Origin: Odiellus spinosus
Lineage: Eukaryota > Arthropoda > Arachnida > Opiliones > Phalangiidae
DNA: 64,000 nucleotides
Direction: 5' to 3'
Assembly: GCA_963920705.1 (NCBI GenBank)
Contig: OY987232.1
Span: forward strand, 12,959,726 to 13,023,725
Shown: one piece after another, positions 1-64,000 of the stretch
How the letters are laid out: each line of letters opens with the position of its first letter
How positions within the stretch are numbered: the stretch's first letter is position 1
The notes under the pieces: model-generated
What the model saw: only the letters and a program-made list of their open reading frames with translations
Told to the model about the DNA's origin: nothing
Databases searched by the model: none
Made by a program: the position numbers and the translations under genes

Positions 1-834
1 ATAAAATCGACGGCCGCCCTTTATTTTATAAATCACCCTCTCCCTTGAAAATCGATTTCGTCGCATTTCAGATAAAGCGAAATCACTCTATTGACGCTAA
101 GACACTTGAGGGAATAAACAGAAAGTACGTATGCGTCCCAACCGTACCCATTTATGACCAGAGCAAATATGCCAGGCCAAATGTTTTATTTATTATAACC
201 GCATCTAGCCATTTAAAATTTGTTAATAAAATTTTAGTCCAAATTAATCTATTATCCGCAGTTAACCGCTTATTCTGGTTTATCCGTGGTTGATTACCAG
301 ACTCGTAAGCCCGTTTTCAATTAAATTAAAGGACTTTTTTAAATATTTTATAACTACGATTAACCAAAAATACAATAAATATAGTTTCTAAAACCATATT
401 TTTCAATATTTATCCGTTAGTGAAAACGGTGTGATTTTTGAGATAATTGTTTTTAAAGATTAAGTTTAAAATCATGAAGAGGTAGAGTTAACAAAACATT
501 TATGATCAACCGTAAATAATCGCAAAATTAGCTGATAATTTTATCCAAACGCCGAACGTTTGCATATGAAGGTTTGATGCATATTATTTCTTTCAGTTTG
601 CGATATGCGGCGTCCTCTTGCCTGTGCGACAATGCCATTTATAAAACCTATCGCTGGATGAACAATAGATGCATTACAACGGAAAATCGTATCGACGAAA
701 GCGACTACAATCTTAAAGAAAACGAAACGCGTCTTTTTTTAACAATTTACGCTTGCAGTCTCATCCCACCGATTACTGTTATAGCCTACGAGATATTGCG
801 CCAATTCTGCCCGTGTTTGAAAACATTAGCATAG
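1..834 (+). CDS. Gene 0: ionotropic-receptor-like gene, 3' end only
   Basis: This is the 3' end of an iGluR/IR-family receptor; its upstream exons lie left of the window. Two exons are visible: 1-124 (second half of S2, frame from base 3, ending in phase 2 before GTACGT) and 597-834 (after a TTTCAG acceptor, ending in TAG). The first holds the MKRNHS-type block (here IKRNHSIDA) that precedes the end of S2. The second starts LRYAASSCLCDNAIYK and carries a hydrophobic helix, read as TM4, from about residue 53 to 72 of that exon, then a short Cys-containing cytoplasmic tail. An AATAAA lies at 848-853, just after the stop. It is most similar to gene 1 and has no stop or frameshift in the visible part. 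The family assignment rests on the complete paralogues downstream. Confidence 0.72.
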
Positions 835-2269
835 CATATTCCCCGAAAATAAACCTTCAAAAACAACAAGTTTCTAAACAAAAAATCTCATGACAGTGGT
901 CCCTTAAGTACATTTAATATATTTCACCTATGTTAAAGTATATAGCTGACACCAGTTGCCTTATAGTAACACATCAATTAAGGCTTACCAGTCTAGGCCT
1001 GTAGTATGTTACAATATCATTATATTCTGCTTGAATAATTTGCGAATTAATTGTAGCTTAATTAACCATAATATTTCAATGAGATTTTTTTCAGCAAGAC
1101 TTCTTTTCACATACTCAAGCAAGTTTCCATGCAAAAAAAAAAATGTCATGGCAGTGAACCTTTAAGTAGAACGTTTGTGTGTTCTCGAGGAATCACTTAA
1201 TATAATTAATTATGTAAGCAACTTTCGGTCGATCAAAATATATTGGTTGTTCATGAACTTGGCTCTGGCTCTCTAATAGCGCTTGCATATGTAAATAACG
1301 CATAATTTTGCCTGTATTGTTTATAATTAGAGAGATAAAATTGTGCCTGATATCCTTAAAGCCATCGCCCCTATAGTTAATATAATATATATATAATAAT
1401 TTAAAGCGAGTTTTCATGATCGCTAAAGTATATGCTATGAAAAAAAAAAAAAAAAAAAAAAACAAATTGGACCTTCTATTACTCTACATAAACTGAAAAC
1501 TACACAGTAAAAGGTTATTAAATACCAGAAATATCTTACTTTAAATCTTTAACAGTAAAATTATAAATCATGGTGAAATATATATTTCATTAACATTAAT
1601 TTAAGAGAATGAATTAAAACAGTCTTTTGTTTAGTCTTTACAATTTTTATCGACTACTTATTGCCTGCTTGGTCACTCGACGCTAATAGGAAAAGCTACA
1701 GGAAATAGAAATTACCCAGTTTGAGCTCGACTAGGACTCGGTGTTTGCGTAAAATTATCTTGTTGATTTATAATTATAATTGGCGATTTATCATTCAATT
1801 CAAAGTACGATTTGATTTAGAACTTGTTTTAAATGTAAATATTTTAAAATCACAGTTTAATTATTTGACACTTAAAATAAACCCCAATTAATTTATCTCG
1901 ATTATTAGCCTAACATTCATATCTATTTTTGAATTATCTGCCTATATTTGAATTTCCCCCTTTTTTATCCTCAAGAAAGAGACATCTAACGATAATTTTG
2001 AAATCGGTACCACCATCCGCATTTTTTTCCTAAGCATAGGCATAGTATTAAAGAAGGCAGTGTCATGACGGTGGTCTTTTAAACCTAAAAGTTTAGTTCT
2101 ACTGTGTTTTTTTTTTTTATTATTATTCTTTGAGTAAAGCGATCCAAACGGTTATCTTGGGAAAAAACATATCCATTCATTTTTAATCTGAATAAACCGA
2201 ACATGCATTTTAGAACTATTTTTTTTAGTCACAAAAAATCAGTAAATATCTGAAAAAAATATGAATGTA
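835..2269. other. Spacer after gene 0, no gene seen
   Basis: This is AT-rich spacer. Bases 912-1010 share a segment of about 95 bases (starting TTAATATATTTCACCTATGT) with 9218-9310 in the second intron of gene 1. A run of 23 A lies at about 1440-1462. The short reading frames here are low-complexity and match nothing. Confidence 0.5.
848..853 (+). promoter_or_regulatory. Candidate polyadenylation signal of gene 0
   Basis: AATAAA lies 14 bases after the gene 0 stop codon. In such AT-rich DNA the hexamer is frequent by chance, so position is the only support. Confidence 0.35.
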
Positions 2270-4400: not shown

Positions 4401-4409
4401 TCAAATATC

Positions 4410-5116: not shown

Positions 5117-5149
<33 letters not shown>

Positions 5150-5788: not shown

Positions 5789-5829
5789 CACTACCTATCG
5801 ATCTAGTTGCATTAAACGAGAAAAAGCTA

Positions 5830-6060
5830 CTATGCTACAAGAGAAATCGGTAGTAGGGTTACTTTAAATAGTTTCTCTTACTCGCAAGACCGACAGAATG
5901 TTCAGAGATCACTCCAGATCAGGGCTTTATGGGGAAAAATAAGGTAGGCATAACCTGAACTCCGTAAATTATTCCATAAACATTCCATCAAAAATTGGTA
6001 AGTCATTTTGTTCAGCATAGAATTGATATTTGTTCAATTTAGTTTTGGATAAAATCATAA
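5830..6060 (+). repeat. Spacer segment shared upstream of genes 1, 2 and 4
   Basis: The segment holds a GGTAGTAGGGTTACTTTA stretch, a block of the type CTCACTCCAGAGAGTTT, and GATAAGGTAGGCATAAC. Related sequence lies at 19540-19780 and 46150-46400, each time in the spacer before a receptor gene. Neither strand has a long frame. It may be an old element or part of a shared 5' region. Confidence 0.45.
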
Positions 6061-6233
6061 AATACTTTTCATTTTTTGAATATAACCAAACATAAAAAAA
6101 AAATTAAAAAACAGCCCAAAATTACCAGGAGCTCATTGAAACACGTCTTTAAAGCAGAGTTGACTAATTGTTTACATTTTGTTTAAACAAAATATCCCTC
6201 GGTCAGAAGCGGATGAAGCCTCCTTTGAATTCT

Positions 6234-6869
6234 ATTATTCCAAGGTCTTGTTCACACATGTCTAAAGGGGTAAGTTTCAAAAATCCCGATTTGTACGCCT
6301 CGTATTGGTAGATATTTTCGGGGCAGGAGTTGAGGTAAGTAGCCATACAGGGAAAAATTGTTGTGGGCTGAGTTACTTGGCCAGCTGCAGTAGAGTTCAT
6401 TTCATTCAATTCCTTGAAAAGTGAATCTTTCCATTTTTTGGTGGGTAAAAATATTACGTGGTTCTCACCAGCCGCATTTTCCTACGTTCGAGAGAAGTTT
6501 GCAAAAAAAGCAAAAAGCTATGGCGGTTGGATACGCAATGTTTAACCTCAAAAAGAGTCCTGCAAATTCAGCTTGCATTGAGACAAGGGGTACGCATGGA
6601 AACACTAGAGCTCGGGAACCTTCTTACATACAGGATTTGCTGGGAATAAATTGGGTGCATCCTAAGTTTTGAAGACCCTCCCCTAGAAATCAGAGCGAGA
6701 ATTTTCCAATTTTCCATAGAGAGGGGGATATGAAGTAGGTGCCCTCAGAGCTAGTAAAAGAGGAATATTCATCCCATTAGAGAGGTACGCTATATGGAAC
6801 ATTCGATTCAGAGACTTTTAAGGAGGGTTTAATTGGCTTCAACTTTTGTTAATATTTTTTAGTAAATCC
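6234..6869 (-). pseudogene. Coding-like unknown fragment, tandem unit 1
   Basis: This is the first unit of a 636-bp tandem duplication. The minus strand has a frame of about 85 residues (roughly 6475 down to 6203) beginning ENHVIFLPTKKW and containing STAAGQVTQPTTIFP, TYLNSCPENIYQYE and LTPLDMCEQDLGI. The composition looks like real protein. Upstream on that strand, hydrophobic coding-like sequence (NIAYPTAIAFCFFC) sits in another frame and is cut off by stops. I do not recognise the family. The pattern fits a decayed gene or transposon fragment, or single exons of an unidentified minus-strand gene. Confidence 0.4.
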
Positions 6870-7508
6870 ATTATTCCAAGGTCTTGTTCACACATGTCTA
6901 AAGGGGTAAGTTTCAAAAATCCCGATTTGTACGCCTCGTATCGGTAGATATTTTCGGGGCAGGAGTTGAGGTAATTAGCCATATAGGGAAAAATTGTTGT
7001 GGGCTGAGTTACTTGGCCAGCTGCAGTAGAGTTTATTTCATTCAATTCCTTGAAAAGTGAATCTTTCCATTTTTTGGTGGGTAAAAATATTACGTGGTTC
7101 TCACCAGCCGCATTTTCCTACGTTTGAGAGAAGTTTGCAAAAAAAGCAAAAAGCAATGGCGTTTGGATACGCAATGTTTAACCTCAAAAAGAGTCCTGCA
7201 AATTCCGCTTGCATCGAGACAAGGGGTACGCATGGAAACACTAGAGCTCGGGAACCTTCTTACATACAGGATTTGCTGGGAATAAATTGGGTGCATCCTA
7301 AGTTTTGAAGACCCTCCCCTAGAAATCAGAGCGAGAATTTTCCAATTTTACATAGAGAGGGGGATATGAAGTACTAGGTGCCCTCAGAGCTAGTAAAAGA
7401 GGAATATTCATCCCATTAGAGAGGTACGCTATATGGAACATTCGATTAAGAGACTTTTAAGGAGGGTTTAATCGGCTTCAACTTTTGTTAATATTTTTTA
7501 GTAAATCC
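6870..7508 (-). pseudogene. Coding-like unknown fragment, tandem unit 2
   Basis: This second copy of the preceding unit is nearly identical, with scattered substitutions and a 3-base insertion near 7374. On the minus strand the open frame (7045 down to 6839) keeps the same core but ends in a different, shorter tail after LGIMDLL because the junction replaces the last residues. The unit runs to within about 75 bases of the first exon of gene 1. The high identity points to a recent duplication. Product unknown. Confidence 0.4.
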
Positions 7509-7583: not shown

Positions 7584-10500
7584 ATGATGGAATCTAAGAC
7601 AATTCGACTGCATTCATTAAACCCAGTAAGTTTACATCAAATTCCACTTAACTAATTAGCGATCAGTGTCGTTGGGTTTTTACACCGAAAGGCATTTGAT
7701 CGAACAGTGTCACAAACAATGAAATTTGGGTTAAAGGACACAATTTTTAATAATTCGATCAAATGACATTCGAACATTTGTCACACGGTTCGATCAAATG
7801 GTAATTATTGTTAAGAAATAAATCTAAACTTCCAGTTTGCTCCCAGTTGAGGATGGTGTTAATTAGCGAGTCGAAAAGATGACAATTGCCTAAGGGTGGA
7901 TTTAAACCACCTACCTCTCTGGGTAACAGTCCCACGATCTAACCAATTTCGATCAAAACCAGATATCTTACAACGCTGCGCTATAGATTGATATGATACT
8001 TTGGGAAAGTGACTTCGAGACACGGGTGGCGCCATCAGCAAGACAGGGATAATCGGTGAAAGGATCCAGAATTCAATAGAATTCCAAAATGAGAAATCAG
8101 CCACAAATAAAACATAGGCATTTCAGTTAAGACTAACTTTAGCTACTTGATTCAGGGCTATATATTCATGTTGGTTTTAACAATCGTAGTATGATTATAC
8201 AAGACAGTGGGAGAAGAACGCCTTTAACTACAACTACTATTGTAGTAGTGAAGGATTAAAATGGATGGGTAGCTTTCGGATAATAACCTCTAAAAATGAC
8301 TCCCAAATTTTACGCAAGTTCCAACCATCTTAGATACAAAATGTATAGGATAAATATACAAATTTTAGTTTTTATAGGACCACCTGGGAATTATAGAAAT
8401 TTATAGTTATCACTAAAAGTCTATCACTTTAATTTAAAAAAGTAAACAACACCAGGTAGCTTAATACTATAAGCAAAGGGCCAGGTAAATATGCAGGCAA
8501 CTTCTGATTCGAAACACTCTTGCGGCCGCAGTTGCTGTGTAAATAGAGAAATCAGAAGCGCCACTCTTTTGAGAAATTCCGGAGCTCATTTGGCGAAGAC
8601 AATATAGCCAAGCGCGGCCGCCAAAAATCTGTCGTTCTTTCCCGATTTAAAACATCAAGGAAGAGTTCAAATCCCTCAAGCCAGACAGGCGTGATGCCTT
8701 TTTTTGGCTATTTTTAAGTAACTCTACCATTGCTGATAATATTAAGCTACAGGGCGTTGTTTACTTTTATGGAATAAAGTGATCGTCTTTTGGTGTTAAT
8801 TACTTTTAAGAAATTTTTATAATGGTTATAAAATACCCAAAAATGTCTATATGAATGAGACTAAAAATCGTTGTTGTGTAAAGATTATTTACAACTTACA
8901 AACTCATTTGACAAAATACGATATTTCCTCAATTAAAAAATATATTTTTTTTTCGGCAATTATAGTTTTATCCGTTAATATATCCAAAGGAAGGACATAA
9001 TAGTTATACTGCAGAAATTGAAGACTTTAATGGAATAATAGCTGAAATCCTTATAGCCATCAAGAGGAACCTAAAGTAATTATTTATGAATTGTATTAAT
9101 CCCGGCAGTGTAAATGACATAGCTTTTCTTCAATTGAAAGGATTTTTCGGCAATCTTGAGCGTGCTTTTAGCAGCTCCCAGCCACCATTAGTTGGGTTAC
9201 CAATTGAATGTGTCCCGTTTTTAATATATTTCACCTATGTTAAAGTAGATGGCTGACTACTTATAGTAGCACCGCGACTAAAGCTTAACAACCTAGGCCT
9301 GTAGTCCACGTTGGAAGGTTGTAAGGGGGAAAGCAGACTTATCTGTCAAATTGCGCAATATCTCAAAATATTGAAATTTCTGAAGTAACAGAAATTTATA
9401 ACTTCCTAATAGCCTACATTCCAAATTAGCAACGGGGCATTTTTACCTTCAATTGTAATGAAATCTATTTCTATTTTAGTCTGACTTTCGAAAAAATCTA
9501 CGATGTAAGATTCAATTTATTTCATCAGAAGAAGATAATATCAGAAGAGAGAATTGTTTAATTTAATGATCTGTTGCACGGATTTGAAGATAAGTGACAA
9601 ACTAGTTACTTAATTTATCGTAATAAGCTCAAATATTTGAACCATTTGAGGTTACGTAGGCTCTTTTCACAATTGTACACATCTCTCAACCCTTTAGTTT
9701 AAAATTCATAATGTCCACGGTTTTATAATATCTAAAATTTTTAAAAATAATAAACGAGTCGGATACTTCGTGAACTGATCTTTTATTTTGTTAAAATTGC
9801 TAACATCACGAGCTTTCGGGCCGTGGCCCTTTTTGGCTTGAAAAGGGGCCACGGCCCGAAAGCTCGTGATGTTAGCAATTTTAACAAAATAAAAGATCAG
9901 TTCACGAAGTATCCGACTCGTTTATTATTTTTAAAAATTTTAGACATCTCTCAACATCTACTTCTGATAGTATAATCCTTATAAATTTTTAATTTATTTA
10001 CTTAAAGGCTTGCTAATTATGCAATCTTGTCTTTCAGGAAGATGAGATGTGGGACTTAAAATCGTTCCCGAACGTCATTTCATACAACCGCATGAAAACG
10101 TTTCAATCCTCGGCTGAAATCTACTACTCTAAAGTGACAATGTTTTCCCAACTTTCTCACACACAGCGTGGTAGTTTCCTCTCCAATATCATCACTATAC
10201 CACTTTGGGTATCAGATTTATTATTATTATCATCAAAAGTGTACTACTTTAATCCATAAAAATTAACAACGCCCCCTTAGCTTAATACTATCAGCAAAGG
10301 TCAAGTTTCATGTCATAGCAAATCATTAAAAAAATTTCCAAAAGTCATCACCCCCATCTGGCTCGAGTGCTTTAGGCTCTTTCTCGATATTTTGAGTCGG
10401 AAGAGAGGTATGGAATTTCTCCAAAGAGTGGCGCTTCCTCGGTTCACTATTTACACTGACAGAGGCCGCTTGTTTCTCGAATCAGAATCTGATGGTTCAT

Positions 10501-13293
10501 TTACCTGGACCCTACTGATGGTATTAAGCAAGACCAAATCTTAATCCGTTAATAGGGTAGGAGATAAATGTAAATCCACTCATTATGACTAATAGTTTAA
10601 TTTTTTGCACCACTTATGAAAAGGTAAAATTTTATCCAAACGCCGAGCAATATCATGGAACCACTAAATTCGTGAGATGTTTTCAAAGCTCGTACTGACC
10701 CAAATTTTCTTAATAAATAAAGAGCCAATACCTTAAAAATCAACCCTAACGCACCAAAATTATAGTTTTAACGTAATATTTCAGTTCCTTGGGCTAATTT
10801 TCAACGCCATTTTGGTTCTTTCTGCTCTAACTAAATGGTTTGAGAGATCAAATAAGTCTGGAAACTTTGTGTGGATATTGTTACTTTTTTGGATTAAAGT
10901 GATATATTATCTTAATCCCTTAATGGGGGAGGGCTAAATGTAAACCCACCAGGTAGGATTATTTCTTAATGATGTTGGTTTTATAATTTTTGGACCACCT
11001 TATCATTTGAATGGTAAAATTTTATCCAATGCCAAGCAATATCACGTTACCATTAAATTATTGAAGATCTTTTCAAAGCTGGTACTGACCCAAATTTTCA
11101 AATCTAATAAATAAGGGGTCAATACCTTAAAAATCACCCCTAACATGTACCAAAATTATAATTTTAACTAAATATTTCAGTTCCTTGGTCTAATTTTCGG
11201 CGCCATCTTGATTCTTTCTGCTCTAACTAAATGGTTTGAGAGAGCAAATCAGTTTGGAATCTTTGTGTGGATGTACTTTGGGCCTCTCTTTCAACAAAGT
11301 AATTATGCTACAATACTACTACAATATTATTACTACAAGTTATGTATTTATTTAAAATAATAAATAACACGATGAAAAATCCCAAACGGATTAATTTAAC
11401 ATGCAACTAAGTAACATTTCAATTTACTTTTTGCATTGATTCGAAATGTGGTCTTTTTTAAAACTAATTTATATATCATGTGTCACCACTTACCCTGGAA
11501 GATTCCGGAGAAAAATTGCGTCATCGTGTTTCAGCTCATTTGTTGAATATCTGGTTTGCAACCCTAATTGTTCTTAACATCGTCATCTTGTCCTACATCA
11601 CGGCTGAGGTCCTCGTGGGCCAAAAAGTGATTCTCAACAATCTGAAAGATATACTGAGAGTCAAAAATCTGCAATACGTCACCCGGCGCTCTGACGCCAT
11701 GCAAGACTTCTTTAAAGTGAGTTATATTGTGTTCGCCCTTCTTAAGGCAGTAGAAAAGGCTTATTTAGTACAATGAAAAATGGCAGATCGCACCAATTTT
11801 CAGTCTGTTTCTCTGGGGGTAAGGATTGTTTGGGAATGATTTATTTCCCAGCCTACTGAACTCTCTCTTAATTACCAGTAGGATAACATCTGTATCCGTT
11901 TGTTTGCACAATAAACACCTTATATTATTATTTCTCCAGTATCCCGCCTCTCCAGGCTGGTGGGCTAGACAGTGACGGGTTCCTAATATTAGACTATTGT
12001 GGCGACATACTCGAGTTTATGCGTAAAACACCGTTAAATTGTACATTTCTTACAGAGAAAAAAACTTAAATTTATCAAATTATACCACGAACTACATCCA
12101 ATTCGTGAGATTGGAATGTGAGATAATAGGTACAAATATAAATCGAAAGCTCTGATTGGCTGTCCTACACATTGTCCTATAATACCTTGAATCTTGATTC
12201 AGGGTTCTCCTAGCGTGAAGTTTCAGGGTAGCATTTTAAAGAGGCAATGTCTTTTTGCCCCCTATTTGCTTCTTATTTAGTATATTATGGATTTACTTAG
12301 CCAGGTGACTTGTAAAATCCCCTAAGCTGATCAGACTGAAGACCTTATCAACATTATTAGTTCCTTCACTAAGGGCTAAGTCGTCTGCTATTACATCGTC
12401 GGTTGCAGTGCTAGAAATTTTTCATCTTTCCAACTAAACGTTTCTCTCATTATCAAATATACTTTTACAGGGAATACCAGGCACTCTAGGAGAGAGAATT
12501 CGTGAAAGGGCGTCTAGAGAGAGAATTAACTTTGATTCATTCTCGAAAGTGGGATCGGGTGAAATGGTGTATATTGACTGGCATGAAGAAATGGAGGATT
12601 TAGACAAATTCTGTAAAGAAACGCTGAAGAATAAAATCGATGGCCGCCCTTTACTTTATCAATCGCCGTTTCCCTTGAAAATCGATTTCATCGCGTTTCA
12701 AATGAAGCGAAATCACTCGGTTGATGCCGAAACAGTAGAGGGAATAAACAGAAAGTACGTATACGTCCAAGAAAAAACCCATTTATAACCAGAGAACACA
12801 TAAAAGGGGATTTTTTTTTTTATTTAGTTTATAAATTTTAGATAAATGTTAATTTATAAATTAAGATTTGTCTAAAATTCTCAATTCAATAAAAGTTTCT
12901 AAAATGTCAGGTTTTTGGATAATTTTCCATGTAATTTTTCGAACACAATGGGTTCTTGGTCTAAGTAGTGCCGCGTTTTTATCCATCATCAGATAAGGTT
13001 TGATATGTAATATTTCTTTCAGTTTGCGTTACGCAGCGTCTTCTTGCCTGTGCGACAATGCCATTTATAAAACCTATTGGTGGATGAACAACAGATGCGT
13101 TACGACGGATAATCACGTGGACGAAAGCGACTACAATCTTAAAGAAAACGAAACGCGTCTTTTGCTGGCCATTTACGCTTGCAGTCTCATCCCACCAATT
13201 ACTGTCATAGCCTACGAGATATTGCGTCAACTGTTCCCTTGTTTTAAAACAAAAGCATATAATATTCCCCGAAAATTAACCTTCACCAAATAA
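7584..13293 (+). CDS. Gene 1: ionotropic-receptor-like ligand-gated channel
   Basis: This is a plasma-membrane receptor of the iGluR/IR family, probably chemosensory. Exons: 7584-7625, 8966-9075, 10038-10208, 11181-11298, 11502-11716, 12471-12754, 13023-13293 (TAA). The first two make the start of S1 (ESKTIRLH, then a region ending IAIKRN). The third ends S1 (SYNRM, then IPLW). The fourth is TM1 (FLGLIFGAILILSALT) plus the pore loop FVWMYFGPLFQQ. The fifth is TM3 with SYITAEVLVG and the start of S2 (DAMQDFFK). The sixth is S2 (GEMVYIDWHEE, MKRNHSVDA). The last holds TM4 (LLLAIYACSLIPPITVIAY). The junction between exons 2 and 3 is out of phase, so a short exon is missing; 9480-9504 is a candidate. 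The start ATG is the first conserved one and is uncertain. No amino-terminal domain was found. About 405 residues, short for an IR. Confidence 0.8.
7880..8060 (-). mobile_element. tRNA-like SINE fragment
   Basis: Read on the minus strand, it contains TGGTTAGATCGTGGG (box A-like), an anticodon-type stem TGGG/CCCA around a 7-base loop, and a perfect T-arm of GGTGG, TTTAAAT, CCACC (a box B variant). The acceptor stem does not close, so it is not a functional tRNA gene. It lies in the first intron of gene 1. A tRNA-derived SINE is the likeliest explanation. Confidence 0.5.
8412..8795. mobile_element. Family B foldback element, intron 1 of gene 1
   Basis: The terminal repeats are long: the left end reads AAAAGTCTATCACTTTA and then a CTTAATACTATAAGCAAAGG stretch, and the right end is the reverse complement, ending TATGGAATAAAGTGATCGTC. 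The interior is unrelated to coding sequence and contains two GCGGCCGC sites. It belongs to the most frequent element family in the window, with relatives at 10233, 15818, 30375, 33581, 40512, 47290, 55097, 62195 and 63940. Confidence 0.75.
9218..9310 (+). repeat. Short repeat shared with 912-1010
   Basis: About 95 bases in the second intron of gene 1 match the spacer behind gene 0, beginning TTAATATATTTCACCTATGT and ending near CTAGGCCTGTAGT. Function unknown; probably a transposon fragment. Confidence 0.5.
9480..9504 (+). other. Candidate missing 25-nt exon of gene 1
   Basis: The sequence follows a good acceptor (CTATTTTAG) and precedes a good donor (GTAAGA). Its 25 bases are 1 modulo 3, exactly what is needed to join the phase-2 exon 8966-9075 to the phase-0 exon 10038-10208. 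The joined frame reads LNLTFEKIYD before EDEMWDLK, which fits the iGluR S1 pattern of LNFTYE-like residues. Reading through to 9555 gives a 76-nt alternative, also in phase. I could not find the counterpart in genes 2-5, so this stays a candidate. Confidence 0.35.
9731..9944. repeat. About 100-bp near-perfect palindrome
   Basis: Arms 9731-9833 and 9842-9944 are reverse complements with very few differences, separated by about 8 bases around GGCTTGAA. The centre is GC-rich (CGGGCCGTGGCCC) while the arms are AT-rich. It lies in the intron before the third S1 exon of gene 1. No open frame. It is either a hairpin-forming foldback element or a recent inverted duplication. Confidence 0.9.
10233..10540. 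mobile_element. Family B foldback element, truncated, gene 1
   Basis: It starts about 25 bases after the donor of exon 10038-10208 (AAAAGTGTACTACTTTAATCC). The interior GCTCGAGTGCTTTAGGCTCT and TGGCGCTTCCTC stretches match the family; the right terminal repeat is incomplete. Confidence 0.65.
10785..10880 (+). pseudogene. Truncated duplicate of the TM1/pore exon
   Basis: After a TATTTCAG acceptor the frame reads FLGLIFNAILVLSALT and KWFERSNKSGNFVW, nearly the same as the functional exon 11181-11298, but it breaks after VW and lacks the pore QQ and a donor. The upstream 240 bases are duplicated too (10545-10784 and 10905-11180). A tandem duplication of about 400 bases produced it. If spliced in, it would give a channel without a pore, so a dead exon is the best reading. 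Confidence 0.75.
11752..12135 (+). mobile_element. Family D element, gene 1 intron
   Basis: It starts about 35 bases after the TM3 exon. It shares CTGGGGGTAAGGATTGTTTG, TATTTCCCAGCC, TGGCGACATACTCGAGTTTA and ACCACGAACTACATCC with the other copies. The left and right ends are eroded. Confidence 0.6.
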
Positions 13294-19470: not shown

Positions 19471-19914
19471 CAATCATTTTAAAACGATATTTCAAATTCC
19501 ACATATTTTAAAAGAGTAAAAAGAATAAAAAATAATCTTTGAGTGACATCATGACGAATAAAGACAGTTTTAAGTCTTGATTTAATTACATAAAACATTG
19601 GTAGTAGAGTCACTTTACAAGTTTACATTCTAACTTTTATTCGTGGGGCCGGGAACTTGACTAGCTCTCACTCCAGAGAGTTTGTGGGGCAAGATAAGGT
19701 AGGCATAACGAGTACTCCATGGATTGAATAAACCAAAGAACCCAGTCAAAAATTTTTAAGTTTATGTATTCAGGTTATTTTTGAATTAATCTTGAATTTA
19801 AGTTTTTTAAAGATATTTTTTACAATATTATTATTTTGTATTAACAGAAAAACTGGGTTTTAATATACGAAATGTGTGTAAAGAACTAAATATTAAATAA
19901 CTGATTACAGTCTT

Positions 19915-20100
19915 CCCTTACCGAAAACAGTCTGATCTGAAGAAGTCTTCAAGAACACTACAAAAGTCTTGGGGAAGTCTTTTCGACTCCTCCAAGACTT
20001 CTTGACACAATGAAAGACTTCCCCAAGACTTGTTAAGACTAAATAAGACACCCGAGAGACTTCCCCAAGACCTTTTAAAACCATCTTTTTTTGGTAAGGG
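19915..20100. mobile_element. Family A MITE, copy 1
   Basis: The termini CCCTTACC and GGTAAGGG are reverse complements, continuing inward with CT-rich and AG-rich repeats of the word AGTCTTGGGGAAGTCTT. Six copies are in the window (27882, 35057, 46801, 56079, 62936). It has no coding capacity; the reading frames seen in it are artefacts of its inverted repetition. Confidence 0.75.
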
Positions 20101-46137: not shown

Positions 46138-46688
46138 AAGATAAGAATTCCAATTCCCCACTTCATGACGAATAAAGACAGTAAAATATGGTTAAAACTC
46201 TAAATACAATTGCACGAAAAAAAAATAATAATAAAAAAACAATGGTGGTAGGGTCACTTTAAACACAAGCTCTCATTCGCTGGGCCGGAAACTTGTAGAG
46301 ATCTCACTTCAGAGAGTTTATGGGACAAGATAAGGTAGGCATAACAGGGGCTCAGCGATTGCGTAAAATTTTACATTTTGATAAGGTGACGCAAAAATTT
46401 TAAAATACTTTAGTACTGTAGTGCAGTGAAAGCTACGGCTTTGTATACACCGTGTGGAGTGATTATACCCTCAACCCAAAAAACTTTAACTAACTATAAA
46501 AGTAATCAATTTCAAAGACTACAATGGTATTTATTTTTTGCAAAAACAAGATTTCAGAAGTGAAAGCAAAGCAGAAAAACAAACCAATCAGATTTTCTTA
46601 ATAATTTGATGGTTTAAGTTATTCAATCACGAGTTGAATGGTGAAATAATATCATATATGCCCTAAATTAAAGCCTAAGCCACCCTTA

Positions 46689-46800: not shown

Positions 46801-46986
46801 TTACGGAAAAAAGTTAATCTGATCAGAAGAGGTCTTCAAGAACACTACAAAAGTCTTGGGGAAGTCTTTGAGACTTCCAAAAGACTTATGGACGTAATGG
46901 AAGACTTCCCCAAGACCTCTTAAGACTACATAAGACACCAGAAAGACTTCCCCAAGACCTCTTAAGACTAACTTTTTTGGTAAGGG
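46801..46986. mobile_element. Family A MITE, copy 4
   Basis: From TTACGGAAAAAAGTTAATC to TTTTTTGGTAAGGG. The left CCC is lost or shared with the abutting element. Confidence 0.72.
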
Positions 46987-50200: not shown

Positions 50201-53200
50201 TATAGAGCTTGGAATCAGATAGTGTATATTTTAGTTATGTTTTCCCACTTATTTACCCTGAAAGGTTTCGATAAGAAGTTGCGTCATCGAGTGTCCGCTC
50301 ATTTGCTGAACATCTGGTATGGAACCTTAATCGTTCTGATCAGTATAATATTATCGTACATCACTGCTGACGTCTTAATTGGGCAAAAGGTTATTCTCAA
50401 CGAGTTAAAAGATATACTGAAAGTTAAAAATCTGGAATATTTTCCGGTGCAATCAGACGCCATAATAGATTTCTATAAAGTGAGTCAAATTCCATGTTAG
50501 CTCTAAGAACAATGGTGAATACCAAAGTTAAATCATATTTCAAGTTTACAACAAGGCATATTATGATTGGTATGTGGGTCTGAAACTTTTGTCTTTAGAG
50601 CTTTCACCAAACGAGAGAGGAAAGATCTGAAAACTCTAAACGGTCGAGGTACGGAATTCAAAATTTCCCTCTCTAGCGGCTGAGATTGTAACTAAGTAGG
50701 CGGTGCTAATATCGCGCTGAACTTTCTAGACGTTTACGGGGTGAAAATGTATCGATGGAAAACAACTCTCCCCTCTCTCTCGCGAAAAGAAAAGAGTGTC
50801 CTGCCCGACCACCTTTCTGTACAAATTGAGGAGTTAAATGTTAGTTCTAGGAACAATGGTGGTTACTAGATAAAGAGGAACAACAAATCCTGGATTTCAT
50901 GACCGTCTTCTAATGGCAAACAGTACATGCAAGTGTAGGAACTAAAAAAACCAAGTGTGCGGATGATATGGATTAAAGACAAGTAAATCATCCTACAAGA
51001 TTATAATATGACATACTGCGGGGTGACCATGAAGCGAGTCTGATTTTCTCAGTCCACGGTTTCACCACAAGCATTCAGAAATTTGAACAGAAAGGTGGCT
51101 ACCAGTACATTCTATCTAGAGTAAATCAGAGTTGAAATCGCGACGGCCGGGCAAGACACGCTCCTTCGTTTCGCAAGAGAGAGGGGAGAGTTGTTCCATC
51201 GACACATTTTCACTCCGGTAAACGCCTAGAAAATTCGGTACAATATTAGCACCGCCTACCGAGTTCCAATCTCAACGCCTAGAGAGGGCAATTTTGAATT
51301 CCGTATCTTGACCATTTAACCACACACCAACCATAATATGTCTTGTTGTAAACTTGAAGCATGATTTACCTGTGATATAGAATACAGGCAAAAGCGCAAG
51401 TGGGTTTACTAGTTACTACTTTTGTACACAATGTTTGCCGCTAGAGGACGCTTCTGAACGCCAGGTTTTGTTTTCATTTTAGACAGTATGGTTATTGTTA
51501 AGAGTTCTTGGAGACATAATTCGGAGTGGCTGATAAGCCACAGCTAAAAGTTCTGTTTGGAAATTGTTATTGTTAAACTATACTACAATATTCATTCAAG
51601 GACCCTATAACTTTCAAGGGATTGAAAGACCTAGAATTCTATATACAGGTTATATCACTATGACCACTCAACTGGAAAAGCTGGCTCCATCAAAAAAAAA
51701 AAAAAAAAAAAAAAAAAAGGGTAATCGGTCAAAATACATGTTTTTCAAGGCTTAAAAGATTTAGAATTCGCGCCTTTTTAATATATACGCGGAACACCAC
51801 ATATTTTAGAAAATCAGATTAATTTGCATACTTCACCTCCAGTCTCGAGGTGGGGTGAAATGGGGACATGTTCTGCCAAAACCACGTATGATCCATGAAA
51901 TGCAGAGATGGCGTTACAATCAACCTGTGGTTTGTCGGCGACAGAGGGTATGGGAAAAGGCATATCTCTATGGCACAGCGTTGTATGATCTCGAAACCAG
52001 AAAATAAAGCTCGAAAATGGAGCTCGTTAAGAAAGGCAGAGCACAGTTCAAAGCTCTATAAAACGTTAAGGGTTCAAGAGTGACTAAATTCCTATGGAAA
52101 CGTAACGTCTTTCGGCCTATGGGTGATATTCCATTAAATATGTTTTCACAGGGAATACCAGGAAAACTCGGAGATAAAATTCTCAAAAGGGGATCAAGGG
52201 AGTCAATTAACTATAAATCATTCTCGAAAGTGGCATCAGGGAAAATGGTGTATATTGATTGGCATGAAGAAGTGAGATTTTTAGATGAATTCTGTAGGAA
52301 AGAAATGAAGGAAAAAAAACACAACCGGCCGTTATTCTATCAATCCCCTTTTCCGCTGAAGATTGATTCCGTTGCATTTCGAATGAAGCGAAATCATTCG
52401 GTTGATGCCAAGACGGTAGAAGGCATAAATAGAATGTAAATAACAATATGTGTGGAATCAAAAACCCATTTAAGACCAAAAAGAAAATACGAAAATAAAA
52501 AAATGGGAAGCGAATAGACACTCGCTTCTTGTAAAGGAAAATGCAACCTAACAGCAAGTGCATATTTATGGATTCGTAATCATATAAATAGGCCTAATCC
52601 ACCAATAAAAAATATACAAACGAATATTAATGGGAAACTTGGAGCTAAAAATGTAAAAGGTTTGGAATTTATTTTCAGAATCAATGTGCCAATTAATACA
52701 CGTATTCGAGAATTTTTTCACAATTTTTAGACATGTTTTTGGTGTTTAAATTAATTTCTGAAGTTTGGTAATGTTAGAATAAAAGTAAATATAAATACAG
52801 ACCAATCATATTATTTCAGACTTCAACAGCGCTCTTAATGTCCTAACATTAAAAAAATAGGCCGGCGTTTTATGCCTAAGGTCTTGGCCATCAAACGAAA
52901 GCCTATTCTTTTAATGCTAGGCCATTACAATAATGACTGGTCCTAATTTACATTTACTTTTATATAAATATTAACAAACCAAATTGTTTTGAAAGTTCTC
53001 GAATACATTTTTGAGCATGGTGATTCCGAAAAAAAAAAAATTCAAAATATTTTCCATTTTTAGCTCCAAGTTTTCCGTTAATTAAATAGACTGCTACTTC
53101 ATGGTTGAGAAACCAAAACCCTGCGAAGCTATAAATAGAGCTTCAAGTCTGTTATGCAAGTCTCTTTATGAGGAATGAATTATTGGTAGTACTAGGAATT

Positions 53201-54325
53201 TGGTAAAATTATGAAGATTTGGAAGAAATGGAGGCGAAAGATTCGGCGAAAGTTTAATGAAACTATCTTCGTACCTTCTCGTGTTAACAATGGGTTCTTG
53301 GTTTAAGAATCGCATTCTAAGGCTAGAAGTTTGGATAAAATTTTAGTTTGATAGGGTGGTGCATAAATTAAAAAACAACATTATTACTAAGAGATAATAA
53401 TCACACCCCAATTACGATAAAATTAACCATTTTCGATTAAATTGAAATGAAAGTCGTCAATATAACTGTTATCACGAAAAAAATCAGATAAATTTATCAA
53501 TAACGAATATATTAGTATTAATGTAAATGCATCTAGTCATTTGAAGTTGGTTTATAAAGAATGTCTAAATTAATCGATTACCCGCAATTAACCGCTTATT
53601 CCGGTTTATCCGTGGTTTATTACCAAACTTGAATTTTCGATTAAATTAGAGAACTTTTTGAACGATTTTAATGGCGCGATTAACAAAAAAACGATAAATA
53701 TCGTTTCTGACACGTATTTGCGTAATACTTTCCAAGAATTTTGAAGATATTCGTGAAAGTATATCTTCACCTTTAGTTCGAATAATCGTTGACCCCCATC
53801 GTATTGTTCAAAATAATTCAAAAAGAATTTTCCCAAAAAACATTCGTTCTAATCCAATGGATAAATTTTAAATAATAAACTTAACCATCTGGTTTAACGT
53901 TTAATCGTTAGTGGAAACGGTGTGACTTTTTTAGATAAATGTTTCTAAAGATAAAGTATAACATTATGAAATGGTAAAATTAACTAAAAATTTAGGTTAA
54001 TCGTAAATAATCGCAAAATTTTATCCAAACATTGAGCCCTAATTCTAACTTTCGAATGCAGAATGGTTGGCATACAGACTATCGATGAACTTTTTTCAGT
54101 TTGCGATACGTGGCGTCCTCTTGCCTATGTGACAATGCCATTAACAAGGCCTTCTTATGGATGAACAACAAATGCGTTACGACGGAAAATCACATCGAAG
54201 AAAGTGATTTTTATCGCAATGAAAACGAAACACGTCTATTGATGACCATTTTCGTTCTAAGTCTCGTCCCGGCAATGGTAGTCTTTATATACGAGATACT
54301 ACGTAACTTTGGCCCTTGTTTTTAA
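47237..54325 (+). CDS. Gene 4: ionotropic-receptor-like channel with altered pore residue
   Basis: Exons: 47237-47278, 47544-47653, 48828-48998, 49997-50114, 50265-50479, 52152-52435, 54100-54325 (TAA). Lengths are identical to gene 2, its nearest relative. S1: DSKTIRLFS, DFDGILVDVMLAI, SYNRM. The pore loop reads FVWMYFAPIFLQS, so the first Gln of the otherwise constant QQ, which aligns with the iGluR Q/R site, is Leu. TM3 then SYITADVLIG; S2 has GKMVYIDWHEE and MKRNHSVDAKTVEG; TM4 is LLMTIFVLSLVPAMVVFIY. All splice sites are GT-AG. The phase gap after exon 2 is shared with all other copies. ATTAAA at 54380 may serve as a poly(A) signal. The start ATG follows TTTTTAGAAG as in gene 2. Confidence 0.8.
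47290..47401. mobile_element. Family B fragment, gene 4 intron 1
   Basis: AACAATCACTTTATCACAT and AAAGTAAACAACGCCCTGTA mark a left-end fragment beginning about 12 bases after exon 1. The right half is absent. Confidence 0.6.
47654..48827. other. Gene 4 intron 2, unresolved stretch
   Basis: Collinear with gene 2 intron 2 (for example the GTCAAACCCGTAAAGGGACA stretch near 48009 and AGAGCTCGGAATCAGA near 48142). By the phase rule it should hold one short exon. None of the shared segments keeps an open frame with splice sites in both genes. Confidence 0.4.
49142..49342 (+). other. 66-residue open frame of unknown nature
   Basis: The frame begins MFKTFTGLPVHSPQ in intron 3 of gene 4. It matches nothing I know, and gene 2 has no counterpart. 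Likely an element fragment or chance. Confidence 0.15.
49780..49940. mobile_element. Family C right-half copy, gene 4 intron 3
   Basis: GAAAGCTGAAATAATAAATT to GTAACTCCAAGTTTCGCTTT, 57 bases before the TM1/pore exon; same site as the gene 2 copy. Confidence 0.65.
50538..51362. mobile_element. Large inverted-repeat element, gene 4 intron 5
   Basis: The left arm from TTCAAGTTTACAACAAGGCA to about 50790 is inverted at 51150-51362 (ending TTGTTGTAAACTTGAA, with minor changes). The arms contain AACTCTCCCCTCTCTCTCGC and AGCACCGCCTAC words. No coding frame. A deleted copy is at the same site of gene 2. Confidence 0.75.
52630..53085. mobile_element. Family C foldback element, gene 4 intron 6
   Basis: It runs from GGGAAACTTGGAGCTAAAAA to TTTTTAGCTCCAAGTTTTCC, the same site as the gene 2 copy 27330-27808. 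Confidence 0.7.
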
Positions 54326-56078: not shown

Positions 56079-56225
56079 CCCTTACCAAAAAAAAGATAGT
56101 CTTAAGAGATCTTGGGGAAGTCTTCCATTACGTCAAGAAGTCTTGGGGAGGTCTCAAAGACTTCAACAAGACTTTTGTAGTGTTCTTGAAGACCTCTTCA
56201 GATCAGACTAACTTTTTTCCGTAAT
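56079..56225. mobile_element. Family A MITE, copy 5
   Basis: From CCCTTACCAAAAAAAAGATAG to CTAACTTTTTTCCGTAA; right end partly lost. Confidence 0.7.
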
Positions 56226-57189
56226 AGCTATACCACCTCGCGGAAAAACCTAGTTAAAATTTCCCAAATCCCTACCCAACCTCATTCTTCTTGACAGGAA
56301 ACGGGATGTCTTAGCATGCATTGGGAGAGTTTCAAGCTACCACTTATTGCTAAAACGACCCTCGTTTGTAACTTACGGATGAATTAATGGGCTTATGGTA
56401 AATTAGACATACATGTAGTGGAAATATACTTTGAAGAAATTTGGACAAATGATAAAGTTTAGTTAACTTAACATTTCTATGTGGAAAATATGACTTTCAT
56501 TAGTAGAAGCAAAAACAACTATTAGTGGAAAACTTTAATAAGGTTAATCATGGCTATTCTGTAAATAGTCTAGATCGATAAGGTGAAACCTAGCAACAAT
56601 TCTTTTAACAGAGATCGTGGTGTTCCAAAACATGAGAAAAAACTCACGTGAGACATATAGTCGTAAACTCGCTATTCAAGTCATTATCATACAGTTTTGT
56701 AGCTAAGGAATTGCTCAGACGGTATAAAACTGCAGTATTATAAGACTGGCGTATTTCAACATGTCTTTCTTAAGGTCGAATGCAATTTAACAAACTAAGT
56801 ATATTATTATATTTTCTTTAGATTTTTCATAATTACCAGTAAAAAAGATCTGACAAGTATAATTAATTTAAAAGAAATTCAAGAAATTGTCTAAAAATTT
56901 AGAGGAATCTGAGTGATTCCAGCTTGAGTTCTCAGCACGCGCTTAAGCATATGTTGTATAAGCTTAGGCTTGCTGCAAAACTCAAGTTGGTTTGGACTAT
57001 CTATGCACAGATATACACAAATTACTCTTGTTTTTTATCTATTTTTTAATTGATTGATTTGCACTTTTTACGTCAATAAGCGGGATTGAAAAGAAGGATA
57101 TCTTAAGATATATTTTTTATCTTCGTTTACACACATATCGTTTCTCTGCACATGTTTTGCGTGTGTACATGCTGTACTTTTCTTAAAGG

Positions 57190-57595: not shown

Positions 57596-57688
57596 GTCAA
57601 TCGCGTCATAAATCGCTAATATGGTTAATTATTAATATTTTATACAGTAAGAACGAGGAAAAAGTTTCGTTTTGACTTTTTGCCATAA

Positions 57689-58231: not shown

Positions 58232-58849
58232 CCATAAACATCTTTAACATACCCCCCTTAGAAACTAAACTGTTGTACAGGTTTCTAAAAATATCCTTTC
58301 CATTATCACTTTATTAAAGTTTTCCATTCTAAGAGTATAAATAACGAAATCAGGCATGGTTATAATTAGCCAATTATCAAGCTCACGAACCCAATTTTCG
58401 AATAGAAGGTTTATCGACTAGTACACGTACGTAAATATATAAAGATGCAACGTCAATTATATTGGCACAATCAAAAGAAATTATTGGGCATCTCTTCCTT
58501 CTCTTAAAAGTGGCACAAGTGACTGCAAAATTCCATATTTCCAGTAATAAATATAATATTTGATAACACTTTAATTTTAGGCAGTAAAATTATACACTTG
58601 AAAAAGGTACTTATTATTATCGGATAGGGATTGATTCTAGAGGCAACTTACCCTTTAATTAATCAATATTTAATATTATAGTTGCTATCATAAAGGAGGA
58701 GGAGCTTAAAAAAATGACAAAAAAGTAATGAAATATAACGGGTAACAAAAATCTAGCTCTAAACAAATTTGAATTAATTTGTAATTGGAAATTAAGTAGA
58801 TGAACTCGGCACATCTTTTGAAATCTTCAAACTTAACTGGGTTGAAAAT

Positions 58850-61800
58850 ATGACGGAATCTAAGACTATTCGATTATTTTCATCACATTTTGTAAGTTTA
58901 AATATTATTAACATCCCACAAAAGTATTCAAGGCTCAGAATCGTCACGTTACCAGTAAAACCGACTGATTTCGGAGATCCGAGCAAATGAATTCGTATAT
59001 TTTTGTTAATCAAATAAGACCATCTTGGATGTCAATTAGATATTATTCATTCGCGAAAAAAATATCTCTTATTCGAGTTAACGTATATGAATTCAAGACA
59101 AACTTTTTATTCATACTCATTGTTATAGGAAATTTTTAGAAAACGACATATTTTTATCTTCACATTATCGGTTTGAATAAACGCGTAATTTGTTTATTAA
59201 TCAAGCTTAAAATTTAATCTCTATTTAATTCGTATCCATTTGATCCGCGTCTGCTTGCATAATTTGTGGTTTAATATTAACAAATAATATTTCTGAGACC
59301 AAAATATCTCAAAAAAGCCTAGTTATCAATGCATATTCTAATTTATTCGCTATCCGATCTCAAGCTCTATTAACGCCAGTTTGAAACCAAGAACAGCCAA
59401 TACGGATTAAAACAATTTTCCACTATAGTGACTATACAGGTGCATTAACCAAATATTTTGCTAACGAGTCTCTCCCATTACCATTTCAACCCGATGTAGT
59501 AACATCTACGTCGGGTTGCCACGTAACGAGAGAGACACTGAATGATCCCGCCACGTATCGAGAAAAAAATGACAATCCAATTTAAGCTAAAGTCCCCTCC
59601 TGCTTCAGGAGCATGCACTAGGTTGATAAAATATAGGAGGCATTGCATTAATGCATTTTCCTACAATTGTAGTATTTTCCGCTAATATATCCCAAGAAGG
59701 GAAAGAATGTTAGTACTGCAGGTATTGAAGATTTTGATGGAATTATGGCCGAACTAATGATCGCCATAAAAAAGAACTTCAAGTACGTATTAATCTTGAC
59801 ATTTTGGAATTTTTTTAAAAGTCATGTTATAATATTATATTTAGGGCAGGGGTGGTCAAACATTTGTTTGCCAGCTTTCGAAAGATGAACACTATCCGCT
59901 TTTTATGCGCTTAGTTCGTTTTGAGGAATAAGAACATTATTGTCTTGGTGCTAAAGAGCAATTTCGGGGATTCTCAAGTACCTCCAGAATTCCTCTGACC
60001 CTACTCGAGTAAATGGACTCCTTCAATTAAGGCGGTAGCCAATGGGTTATTTAACATACCTATTATTATGAAGCGAACCAAAGATGCTATCAGTTCCCAG
60101 GTTTCACTTTGAATTGAATCGTCGTAAGTTCATAATGTAATTCTGATAATCATAACGTAAGGGAATTTTTGAAAATAATTTATTTCCCAGTCTACTGAAC
60201 TCTCTCTTACCATTTTCCCCATGCGAAGCGGGTGGGCACGCTGTAGGCCAGACGGTGACGGGTCTCGGATAACATATTGCAGCAACATCGTCGAGTTTAC
60301 GAGTAAAACTCTGATATAATATACATTTCTTATCATAAGTTATCAGAGGAGTTATGACCATTTTCAATTAAGGCTGTAGTCAATAGGTACCTCTCCAAAA
60401 AGGGTCATTAAGCAGTACTTATTATCAAGAGAACCACAAACGCTAATAGTTCGCGGGTTACACTTAAATTTGAATTGAAATCGTCGTAGTTCATGATGTA
60501 GTATTTATAATTATAAAGTGAGAGATTACCGAATCTTGTTTAAAATTACTTATCGTAATTTCATCTTTTCCATACCTATTATCTCACGTTCTAATACAGC
60601 TAGATTCCTTAACTTTACCTCCGACGAAACATAAACGTCAGACGTGGTTTGAAGTGTAATTTGATAATTTTTAGTTTATTTTTTAAAAAGTTAAGATAAT
60701 AAATGTATATAATAAAGATATTTTACGCGTAAACTCGAAGATGTCGCCACCATAGATACTATTATCCTAGATTCGTCAAAGTCTGGCCCTACAGCATGAC
60801 CATCCTCCGCGAGAGGTTGGATGCTGGTGAAAGAGGTAAGAGAGAGTTGAGTAGACTGGGAAATAAATCATTCCCAAACAATGCTTACCCTCAGAAAAAC
60901 TGTGACCCTATATGAAAATCAGTGCCATCTCGTGTTTTTTCATTGTACTAAATAACCCTTTACTACCGTCTTAAAAGGCAGAGTAAGAGTAATATTGTAC
61001 TCAACTCGTGTAATATAGTTTTAATTTTAGAATTGAAACATAGAAGTATAAAAAAATAAGCTCAATGAGGTTACAAAAATAAAATTGTTAAGCTTTTTCT
61101 TGAGCAATCTGTGTTCAGTTAAGAATATAAAATGAGTAACCAGAAAATTGAAAAATCAAAAATGATCACCATTGCAAAAACGTCTGATGACCCCATTAGT
61201 AATAGGACAAAATACTTAACAATTAAAATTATTTCTCTTCAAGCCTGACCTTTCAACAAACTTTCTCTGTAAGATTAATTTATAGTACCAGAAGGAGATA
61301 ATAGGAAAATTAACTGCGGTTCTAGTTGGGTCAACAATTCGTATGTAAATAAGTAATGATGCACATAATAATGCCTTGTAACTTTATTCCGATTCGTAGC
61401 CCAAGAATTAAGACAGGGTTGCCACAGTTTTTTCAGATTCAAATTCCCTGACTTTTCCAGGTTTTTCCCCGACCTTTTCCAACGATTTTCCCTGACCGTT
61501 TCAGCTAGTTCTAATTTGTCTGTATTTTCCTCGGCCGATATATTTTTCATAAAAAGCGCTACAAATTTTGCAATTGTGTTCGCCAAACTTTTTGCACGCA
61601 TATTTTTGTTCTAATCTATACAACTGTCACAGTCAGCTTAAAATCTTTTCCGCAGATAATTATTGTAATTTTCTGGCTTCTTGAAAGATTTTTAAATTCC
61701 CTGACTTTTCCCTGACTTTTTAAAATATTTTAAAAAATTCCCCGACTTTTCCCTGACTTTTTTGGTTCATTTTCAAATTCCCTGACTTTTCCCTGTTTTC

Positions 61801-64000
61801 CCTGACCTGTGGCAACCCTGTAAGAGTACCACCCTTTCAACGACAAAACAAACTTTATAAATAATTTATTGGATCTCTTGAATTGGACGTTGCTGACGGG
61901 AGAGACAAAAATAACCATACATTTGGTTGACCTGCTTATGACTCCGGTTACCCCTGAAGAAAATAACGCAAGCTTCATTTTCCTACGTACTCACTAAAGC
62001 CTGTCCAATATTCATTTAACATTTATATACCTTCTATTCCTCTTAAAATTTTCTAATTTAACTATTTAAGTTGCGTTTGTGTCTGGTAGCAAAGTTACAA
62101 GTCAGTTTACTTTGTTAATTGGTCAAAATATCCTTACAATTGACTAGATTTGGGTGTCCTTCTCCTATTGTCTCCTACAAATGTTGTTTTCTTGTCAAAA
62201 GTATCACTTTATTCCATAAAAGTAAAAAAAGCCCCGTAGCTTAATACTATCAGCAAAGGTCCAGTCTTACGTCATAACCCATCACTTATACATAGCCAAA
62301 AAGTCATCACCCCTGTCTGGCTCGAGTGGTTTGGATTCTTCCTTCATATTTAGAGTCGGGAGAGAGGGACGGAATTTAGGAGGGCTGCGCTGAGCTATAT
62401 TGTCTTCCCTCCCAACGTTGTTTACTTTTACGGAATGAAGTGATAGACTTTGTTCTTGAAAAATTATTCATTTGAAGATATGATAGCTAATTTGATAATT
62501 TTTTTTCTCGAGGAAAATGACGTGTGGGACTTAAAAACGTATCCTAACGTCATTTCATACAACCGAATGAAAAACCATCAAGCAACGGTTGAAATCTACT
62601 ACTCTAAAGTGACTATGTTTTCCCAACTTTCTCGAACTCAGCATGGAAGTTTCCTATCCAATATCATCAATATACCACTTTGGGTATAAAAAGTTCTTAC
62701 ACATGAAATGGATTCTAAAACGTAGTATTTTACACAATCTTGAGGACAGAAAATAAAATAATAAACGATTAGATTAATAAATTAGACGAAGCTAATCAAT
62801 GAGGATAAATTTTGACACGAAAGGAATATAGTTATTTAAATTAATATCTATAGGCATGCAGTTTCAGGTCATTGAACTCCTGAGGAAAAAAATAACGTTC
62901 AAAAGCCGAGCATCTGGAGAACTGCTATCCACAATCCCATACGGAAAAAAGTTAGTCTGATCTGAAGAGGTCCTCAAGAACCCTACAAAAGTTTTGGGTA
63001 AGTCTTTAAGACCTCCCCAAGACTTCTTGACGTAACGGAAGACTTCCCCAAGACCTCTTAAGACTACATAAGGCACCCGAAAGACTTCCCCAAGACCTCT
63101 TAAGACTAACTTTTCTTGGTAAGGGATGCCATTGATACGGAGTCAGCAAGGGAGACATTGATACGTCAGAGGTTCCTATATCTCACCTCGGTGACATCCC
63201 CTTAGTGAAGGAGTTCCAGTATTCGTCCTAACAAGCGCTCCCCCAGTAAGGGGGTTCCATGACGTCAGGCTTTCTTATCCCCCTGGCTCTTTGCTGTCTC
63301 CCTACTTAGATGTTTTTCGTTTAAGTCTCTCCTTAGGGATATTGAATATCGAGATATTGCCCCATTCGAGATTTGTCCATTCCAGATTCGGCCCATGCGA
63401 GATGAAGGCCATTCGAGATTGTGTACAAATTGCCCCTAAATTTACTTGGAACATGTAATACAATTTGATACGAATTATTTTAGTACCTTGGATTAATTTT
63501 CTGCACTATCTTGGTTCTTTCTGCTCTAACTAAATGCTTTGAAAGAAGAAATAAGTTTGGGAACTTTACGTGGATGTACTTGGCACCTTTGTTTCAGCAA
63601 AGTAATTGTACTTCAATATATTAATGCTTATTTTAAAACCACCCAAAAAGTAACTAATATTGAGAAGCATGTTTTTAATCTAAATAAGCCATGGAGATTT
63701 ATTTTAAGACAAGAATTTATTTCTCTAAAGAGAATTGCTACCTTCCTAATGGTCGAGCTCGCACCCTCTTTTGAGGAGAGGGGAAACTGGTTGGTCCTAG
63801 GGTAGAAATGGAAGAATGGAAGATAGGCTGTTAACATTCAAGGTAGAAATTCTCCTTAGAGAAATAAATTATTCTTGATTTAATGGTGAAGTACATGATA
63901 AATTTTTTTATAAATAATGTTAATATTTCAGTCCTTCCAAAAGTCCATCACTTGATTCCATAAAAGTAAACAACGCCCCGTAGCTTAATACTATCAGCAA
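58850..64000 (+). CDS. Gene 5: ionotropic-receptor-like gene, 5' part
   Basis: Exons inside the window: 58850-58891, 59673-59782, 62513-62683, 63484-63601. The TM3, S2 and TM4 exons lie beyond the right edge. S1: ESKTIRLFSSHF, YFPLIYPKKG, DFDGIMAELMIAI, then ENDVWDLKTYPN and SYNRM. TM1 YLGLIFCTILVLSALT; pore FTWMYLAPLFQQ. Closest to gene 3. At the start of exon 3, four copies have ATG where this one has GTG, showing that the ATG there is not an initiation codon. The frame upstream of the first ATG stays open for about 18 codons (FEIFKLNWVENM), as in gene 3. The exon 2 to exon 3 phase gap is present here too. Confidence 0.75.
59420..59642. repeat. Decayed relative of the compound palindrome
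   Basis: Reverse-oriented relative of 45426-45732 (GGTTGCCACGTAACGAGAGA, AAAGTCCCCTCCTGCTTCAG, GATAAAATATAGGAGG), in intron 1 of gene 5. Confidence 0.6.
60028..60975. mobile_element. Two family D elements in tandem, gene 5 intron 2
   Basis: 60366-60975 is a near-complete reverse copy (AATTAAGGCTGTAGTCAATA to CCTTTACTACCGTCTTAAAA). 60028-60365 is rearranged: its start is reverse-oriented and the rest, from about 60158, is direct, so it is an internally inverted copy. Confidence 0.6.
61414..61820. mobile_element. CAGGGTTGCCACAG-ended element
   Basis: The ends CAGGGTTGCCACAG and CTGTGGCAACCCTG are complements with one unpaired position. The interior repeats ATTCCCTGACTTTTCCCTGA many times. The flanks do not show a clear 8-bp duplication. 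Non-autonomous, hAT-like by its ends. Confidence 0.65.
62195..62455. mobile_element. Family B element with internal deletion, gene 5 intron 2
   Basis: It runs from CAAAAGTATCACTTTATTCC to CGGAATGAAGTGATAGACTT. The right arm is shortened to the outer 35 bases or so. It ends about 60 bases before exon 3 of gene 5. Confidence 0.72.
62936..63125. mobile_element. Family A MITE, copy 6
   Basis: From CCCATACGGAAAAAAGTTAG to CTTTTCTTGGTAAGGG, in intron 3 of gene 5. Confidence 0.73.
63361..63418. repeat. CCATTCGAGAT short tandem repeat
   Basis: Four imperfect units of 14-17 bases (CCATTCGAGAT, CCATTCCAGAT, CCATGCGAGAT, CCATTCGAGAT) in intron 3 of gene 5. Confidence 0.7.
63940..64000. mobile_element. 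Family B element cut by the window edge
   Basis: CCAAAAGTCCATCACTTGAT and ACAACGCCCCGTAGCTTAAT mark the left end of a further copy. Confidence 0.7.

Follow-up and report, generated by a model that had tools for sequence, protein, structure and literature searches.

A stretch of 64,000 nucleotides (nt) of the Odiellus spinosus genome (contig OY987232.1, positions 12,959,726 to 13,023,725; hereafter the window) probably contains a tandem array of divergent genes for ligand-gated cation channels resembling the ionotropic receptors (IRs), which has grown by local duplication. Judged from sequence, the gene products are very short and strongly diverged members of the glutamate-gated channel kindred; they would most likely be smell or taste receptors, and appear reduced at their start to the ligand-binding part. 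Their similarity to the Pfam ligand-gated ion channel family (Lig_chan, PF00060) is weak but specific.

Six gene copies, g0 to g5, lie head to tail on the plus strand of the window. Four of them cover all exons, and the other two run off the ends of the window:
3 to 834, plus strand: g0, truncated gene, with the end of exon E (3-124) and exon F (597-834) with the stop codon.
7584 to 13293, plus strand: g1, exon models for all exons.
20859 to 29571, plus strand: g2, exon models for all exons.
33136 to 41456, plus strand: g3, exon models for all exons.
47237 to 54325, plus strand: g4, exon models for all exons.
58850 to 63601, plus strand: g5, truncated by the window end, with a model of 147 amino acids (aa) that lacks the third transmembrane segment (TM3).

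The full gene model has eight coding exons, labelled Z, A, M, B, C, D, E and F. The sizes of the first seven are constant across copies (42, 110, 25, 171, 118, 215 and 284 nt), and the last is of variable length. The spliced models are 396-420 aa long (g1, 411; g3, 420; g4, 396), and those of g1, g3 and g4 have full-length frames and GT-AG borders. In the models the first lobe of the ligand-binding domain (S1) is followed by TM1, the pore, TM3, the second lobe (S2) and TM4. An earlier reading of the letters alone, the sequence-only reading, had described six same-strand copies with repeated exons of fixed size, encoding S1, TM1 plus pore, TM3, S2 and TM4 in that order. Exon calls and phases bear out the former, and the spliced models, the alignment with the AMPA receptor GluA2 and hydropathy bear out the latter. 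Absent from that reading were the 42-nt first exon Z and the 25-nt micro-exon M, which restores the frame.

Since exon A ends in phase 2 and exon B begins in phase 0, an intervening exon of 3n+1 nt is required. Direct splicing of A to B is ruled out by the unfitting phases, and the joined frame of g2 runs into stops. When a middle exon of at least 15 codons was sought between A and B, no candidate was found in g1, g2 or g4, and the five candidates in g3 and g5 were unconvincing. With the limit reduced to 8 codons, a 25-nt exon appeared in g1, g3, g4 and g5, and its homologue was located in g2:
9480 to 9504, plus strand: micro-exon M of g1, 25 nt, completing an LNFTY-like strand (RNLNLTFEKIYD).
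22700 to 22724, plus strand: g2 homologue of M, with the donor GT retained and the acceptor AG missing.
35332 to 35356, plus strand: micro-exon M of g3.
48721 to 48745, plus strand: micro-exon M of g4, with an intron of merely 82 nt to exon B.
61244 to 61268, plus strand: micro-exon M of g5.

The translations of M are LTFEKIYD, LTYQQVYS, LTYHNVFR and LTFQQTFS. Together with the preceding codon, M gives RN(L/F)NLT(Y/F), which corresponds to the LNFTY strand of ionotropic glutamate receptors (iGluRs). Resampling the four introns 500 times with a first-order Markov model yielded no four-way set of such exons in 431 cases, and the similarity seen for M was never attained (best score 4, against 129 observed). 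In g2 the other exons are open, and skipping the M homologue shifts the frame. Because the acceptor AG is missing and omission of M breaks the frame, g2 is probably a pseudogene. A conserved stretch at 21976-22050 has an incompatible phase and was therefore not accepted as an exon.

Two introns between M and B contain repeats. In g1, a 107-nt inverted repeat (9728-9834 and 9841-9947) has arms that are 98% complementary and 6 nt apart; it is perhaps a recent mobile element. In g3, repeats of 26-27 nt (TAATTACGATTCTTTTTTAGTTAGGT-like) form an array at 36060-36506.

PF00060 was the top Pfam family in all four copies with all exons (E-values from 5.4e-7 to 2.6e-3). The E-values were 1.8e-4, 5.4e-7, 1.2e-3 and 1.1e-5 with the partial models of g1, g2, g3 and g4, and 2.3e-4, 2.6e-3 and 1.3e-5 with the full models of g1, g3 and g4. 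None of eight reversed or block-shuffled controls matched PF00060, and one matched another family at E 0.13. The PF00060 match on which the sequence-only reading had staked its identification was present in all four copies, and no unrelated family ranked above it. The truncated g5 model did not match PF00060; its top family was Acyl_transf_3 (E 0.0033), far below the cut-off of that family. Matches to Mem_trans, Acyl_transf_3, UPF0014, Herpes_LMP2, FtsH_ext, Smim3, DUF4149 and bCoV_NS6 were all below their cut-offs and were set aside as membrane-segment or chance noise. Profile alignment to GluA2 with hhalign gave E 0.0012, at a probability of 19%, for a region covering the pore, TM3 and the beginning of S2.

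MAFFT aligned g1 to g4 end to end with the channel core of GluA2. Residue matches were read from all three MAFFT modes; within S2 the alignment is uncertain. In g1 to g4 and in every mode, R485 of GluA2, in S1, was aligned with an arginine, and P478, Q587 and C773 were likewise aligned with proline, glutamine and cysteine. The stretch NVISYNRMK that carries the arginine is also found in g5, so the S1 arginine is present in all five copies spanning the site. At the position of Q586, g1 to g3 have glutamine and g4 has leucine. T480 is replaced by valine, and C718, unlike C773, by leucine or phenylalanine. Compared with GluA2, S1 has about 22 residues fewer in the stretch from the LNFTY strand to the arginine motif. 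The M-B intron, though longer in the other copies, measures 82 nt in g4 and 60 nt in g2, which makes an undetected exon there unlikely.

Hydrophobic segments with a mean hydropathy of at least 2.0 occupy the places of TM1, TM3 and TM4 in all four copies, and three of them have a weaker one (1.0-1.4) within S1, at roughly residues 28-47. From the GluA2 alignment and hydropathy, the layout of S1, TM1, re-entrant pore, TM3, S2 and TM4 is predicted for each of the four. By eye, basic residues follow TM1, precede TM3 and follow TM4, and this fits S1 and S2 lying outside the cell.

Several results weigh against an identification as IRs. Every PF00060 score was below 30.8 bits, the curated cut-off, with 30.0 as the best. 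The ligand-binding domain family PF10613 was not matched by five proteins at E<=10 or by three full models at E<=1. A profile of the six copies, some truncated and all without M, ranked GluA2 first in a PDB search but only at a non-significant E of 0.043, and single-sequence phmmer searches of PDB gave one chance-level match and no glutamate receptor. Of the glutamate-binding triad the arginine is retained, whereas, subject to the uncertain S2 alignment, E705 is replaced by lysine or arginine, and the T655 position reads M, M, T and I in g1 to g4. Finally, the N-terminal region of about 200 aa that is usual for IRs without an amino-terminal domain (ATD) was not found here. The sequence-only proposal of IR-family chemoreceptors is partly supported: PF00060 ranked first in four of four copies, with scores under the cut-off, and PF10613 was unmatched, which leaves the identity as IR-family chemoreceptors putative.

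The copies g1 to g5 are under purifying selection. The ratio of nonsynonymous to synonymous substitution rates (dN/dS) was 0.23-0.43 in all ten pairs of g1 to g5 (g0 was left out), and the four pairs involving the truncated g5 gave the highest values. By identity, the sister pairs are g0-g1, g2-g4 and g3-g5. The same strand, the fixed exons and these pairs support the local duplication proposed from the sequence alone. Comparison of the copies also showed intergenic DNA common between units. The order from g0 to g5, the sister pairs and this shared DNA fit one duplication of a two-gene block, by which g2 and g3 would have given rise to g4 and g5.

Exon B departs from the rest of the gene. That of g1 (10038-10208) is 89-90% identical to those of g2 (22785-22955) and g4 (48828-48998), whereas the remainder of the gene is less alike and the 80 nt upstream of the exon are not similarly alike. 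Codons for the same amino acid were identical in exon B at a fraction of 0.90 for g1-g2 and 0.89 for g1-g4, against 0.64 in other exons. Fisher tests of silent choice gave uncorrected p values of 0.0007 and 0.0011 for these two pairs, and 0.075-0.56 for the other four of the six. This suggests exon-limited conversion or silent-site constraint at exon B. A second exon C is also present in g1:
10753 to 10879, plus strand: decayed exon C of g1, a tandemly duplicated copy lying 396 nt ahead of the intact one and breaking off inside the pore helix.

The start of the protein can be explained in two ways. The array may represent a functional IR-like lineage pared to little beyond the lobes of the ligand-binding domain and the pore, a tentative reading that falls just short of an even chance. 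Translation would then begin at the first S1 strand, signal peptide and N-terminal region would be lacking, the part of S1 that forms loop 1 and helix C in GluA2 would be deleted, and the N-terminus would be translocated by TM1 alone. Alternatively, the genes may encode ordinary divergent IRs whose signal peptide and N-terminal exons went unrecognised ahead of exon Z, so that the protein is not truly reduced; we give this a substantial chance, though a less than even one.

The models begin a few residues ahead of the first S1 strand. No signal peptide was seen at their very start by hydropathy. An ATD was absent from the gene models of all five copies spanning the start, the intergenic DNA being covered by comparison among copies rather than by a scan with an ATD profile. 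In g1, g2 and g4 the start codon directly follows an AG, as it would after an acceptor for unrecognised N-terminal exons, and in g3, g5 and g1 the frame stays open for a short way before the ATG, with some similarity. However, the ATG has an A at -3 in all five copies, an in-frame TAG lies two codons ahead of it in g2 and g4, and in g5 the 50 nt before it contain no AG. When whole-unit DNA and peptides from about 2 kb upstream were compared among copies, inspection by eye revealed no additional block farther upstream that is conserved with one open frame. Conserved elements of two kinds sit about 0.4-1.7 kb ahead of the genes:
5849 to 5954, plus strand: conserved element upstream of g1, a candidate promoter and 5' untranslated region (UTR) exon.
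19592 to 19709, plus strand: element of the g1 type at g2.
46236 to 46345, plus strand: element of the g1 type at g4.
32063 to 32320, plus strand: different conserved element upstream of g3, common to g5.
58233 to 58480, plus strand: element of the g3 type upstream of g5.

The g1-type element ends in the donor-like AAG/GTAGGC, which would suit a leader exon, but it has an ATG in g1 and g4 and a GTG in g2, and no match exceeding shuffles was found in g3 or g5. The conserved elements could be promoter plus 5' UTR, yet they leave room for a leader exon.

It is unlikely that the array belongs to a non-IR iGluR lineage or to an independent iGluR-derived family that is not chemosensory. The description of PF00060, ligand-gated ion channel, is a general one, and the QQ of the pore resembles GluA2; however, the lack of a detected ATD, the altered ligand contacts, the strong divergence and the tandem expansion fit IRs as characterised in excerpts of PMC2924276 and PMC7882480. 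An array of decaying pseudogenes is very improbable, since the lost micro-exon acceptor of g2 and the broken second exon C of g1 stand against the complete frames and GT-AG borders of g1, g3 and g4 and the low dN/dS.

If the genes are IR-like, each product would most likely be a subunit of an IR-type ligand-gated cation channel. By analogy with the family, the subunits may reside in sensory dendrites, their S1 and S2 facing outwards, and form tetramers, probably with an IR co-receptor. TM1 would need to act as a reverse signal anchor because no signal peptide was found; followed by basic residues, it would insert so as to place S1 outside. The retained S1 arginine, which is conserved in acid-sensing Drosophila IRs (excerpts of PMC7882480), points to carboxylate ligands, and the channel may open once this arginine holds a ligand bearing a carboxylate.

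Elsewhere in the window, 6228-7469 holds a tandem duplication (636-nt spacing, 97% identical) within a 2-kb stretch of higher GC (0.381). It has open frames on both strands, and no Pfam family was found in the six frames scanned. A dispersed repeat family occurs in both orientations at 19915-20089, 27883-28057, 35117-35290, 46802-46976, 56097-56226 and 62940-63114, with an internal periodicity of 21 or 42 nt in places. Neither a tRNA nor an Rfam family reaching its gathering score was detected in the window. In Pfam searches with twenty further open frames, Ribosomal_S17e appeared at a sub-threshold E of 0.1 and no other family at E<=1. No relatives were confirmed among 63 pattern matches in viral contigs and 21 in prokaryote genome contigs, as expected for an animal gene.

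The short N-terminal region of IRs carries a signal peptide. According to excerpts of PMC2924276 and PMC7882480, IRs that lack an ATD mostly carry about 200 aa ahead of S1, and in IR84a deletion of the N-terminal region abolishes normal cilia targeting (PMC7882480). The array genes share with protostome divergent or tuning IRs the bipartite ligand-binding domain around TM1, pore and TM3, followed by TM4; they also share the absence of a detected ATD, strong divergence, tandem clustering and, with acid-sensing IRs, the S1 arginine. They differ from IRs in the N-terminal region not found before S1, in an S1 that falls short of the GluA2 length, and in the lack of a PF10613 match. Whereas the vast majority of divergent IRs of D. 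melanogaster are single-exon genes (excerpts of PMC2924276), these have eight coding exons, one of 25 nt. Among the matches listed for ionotropic receptor and microexon, titles and abstract openings showed none on chemosensory IRs, which is no claim of absence from print.

Annotation could miss such genes, since their first exon is 42 nt long, their micro-exon 25 nt, and their Pfam scores lie below threshold. Tuning IRs appear to need the short N-terminal region, as excerpts on IR84a indicate (PMC7882480). A natural family that is under purifying selection and apparently lacks this region would therefore make it testable which parts an IR can lose.
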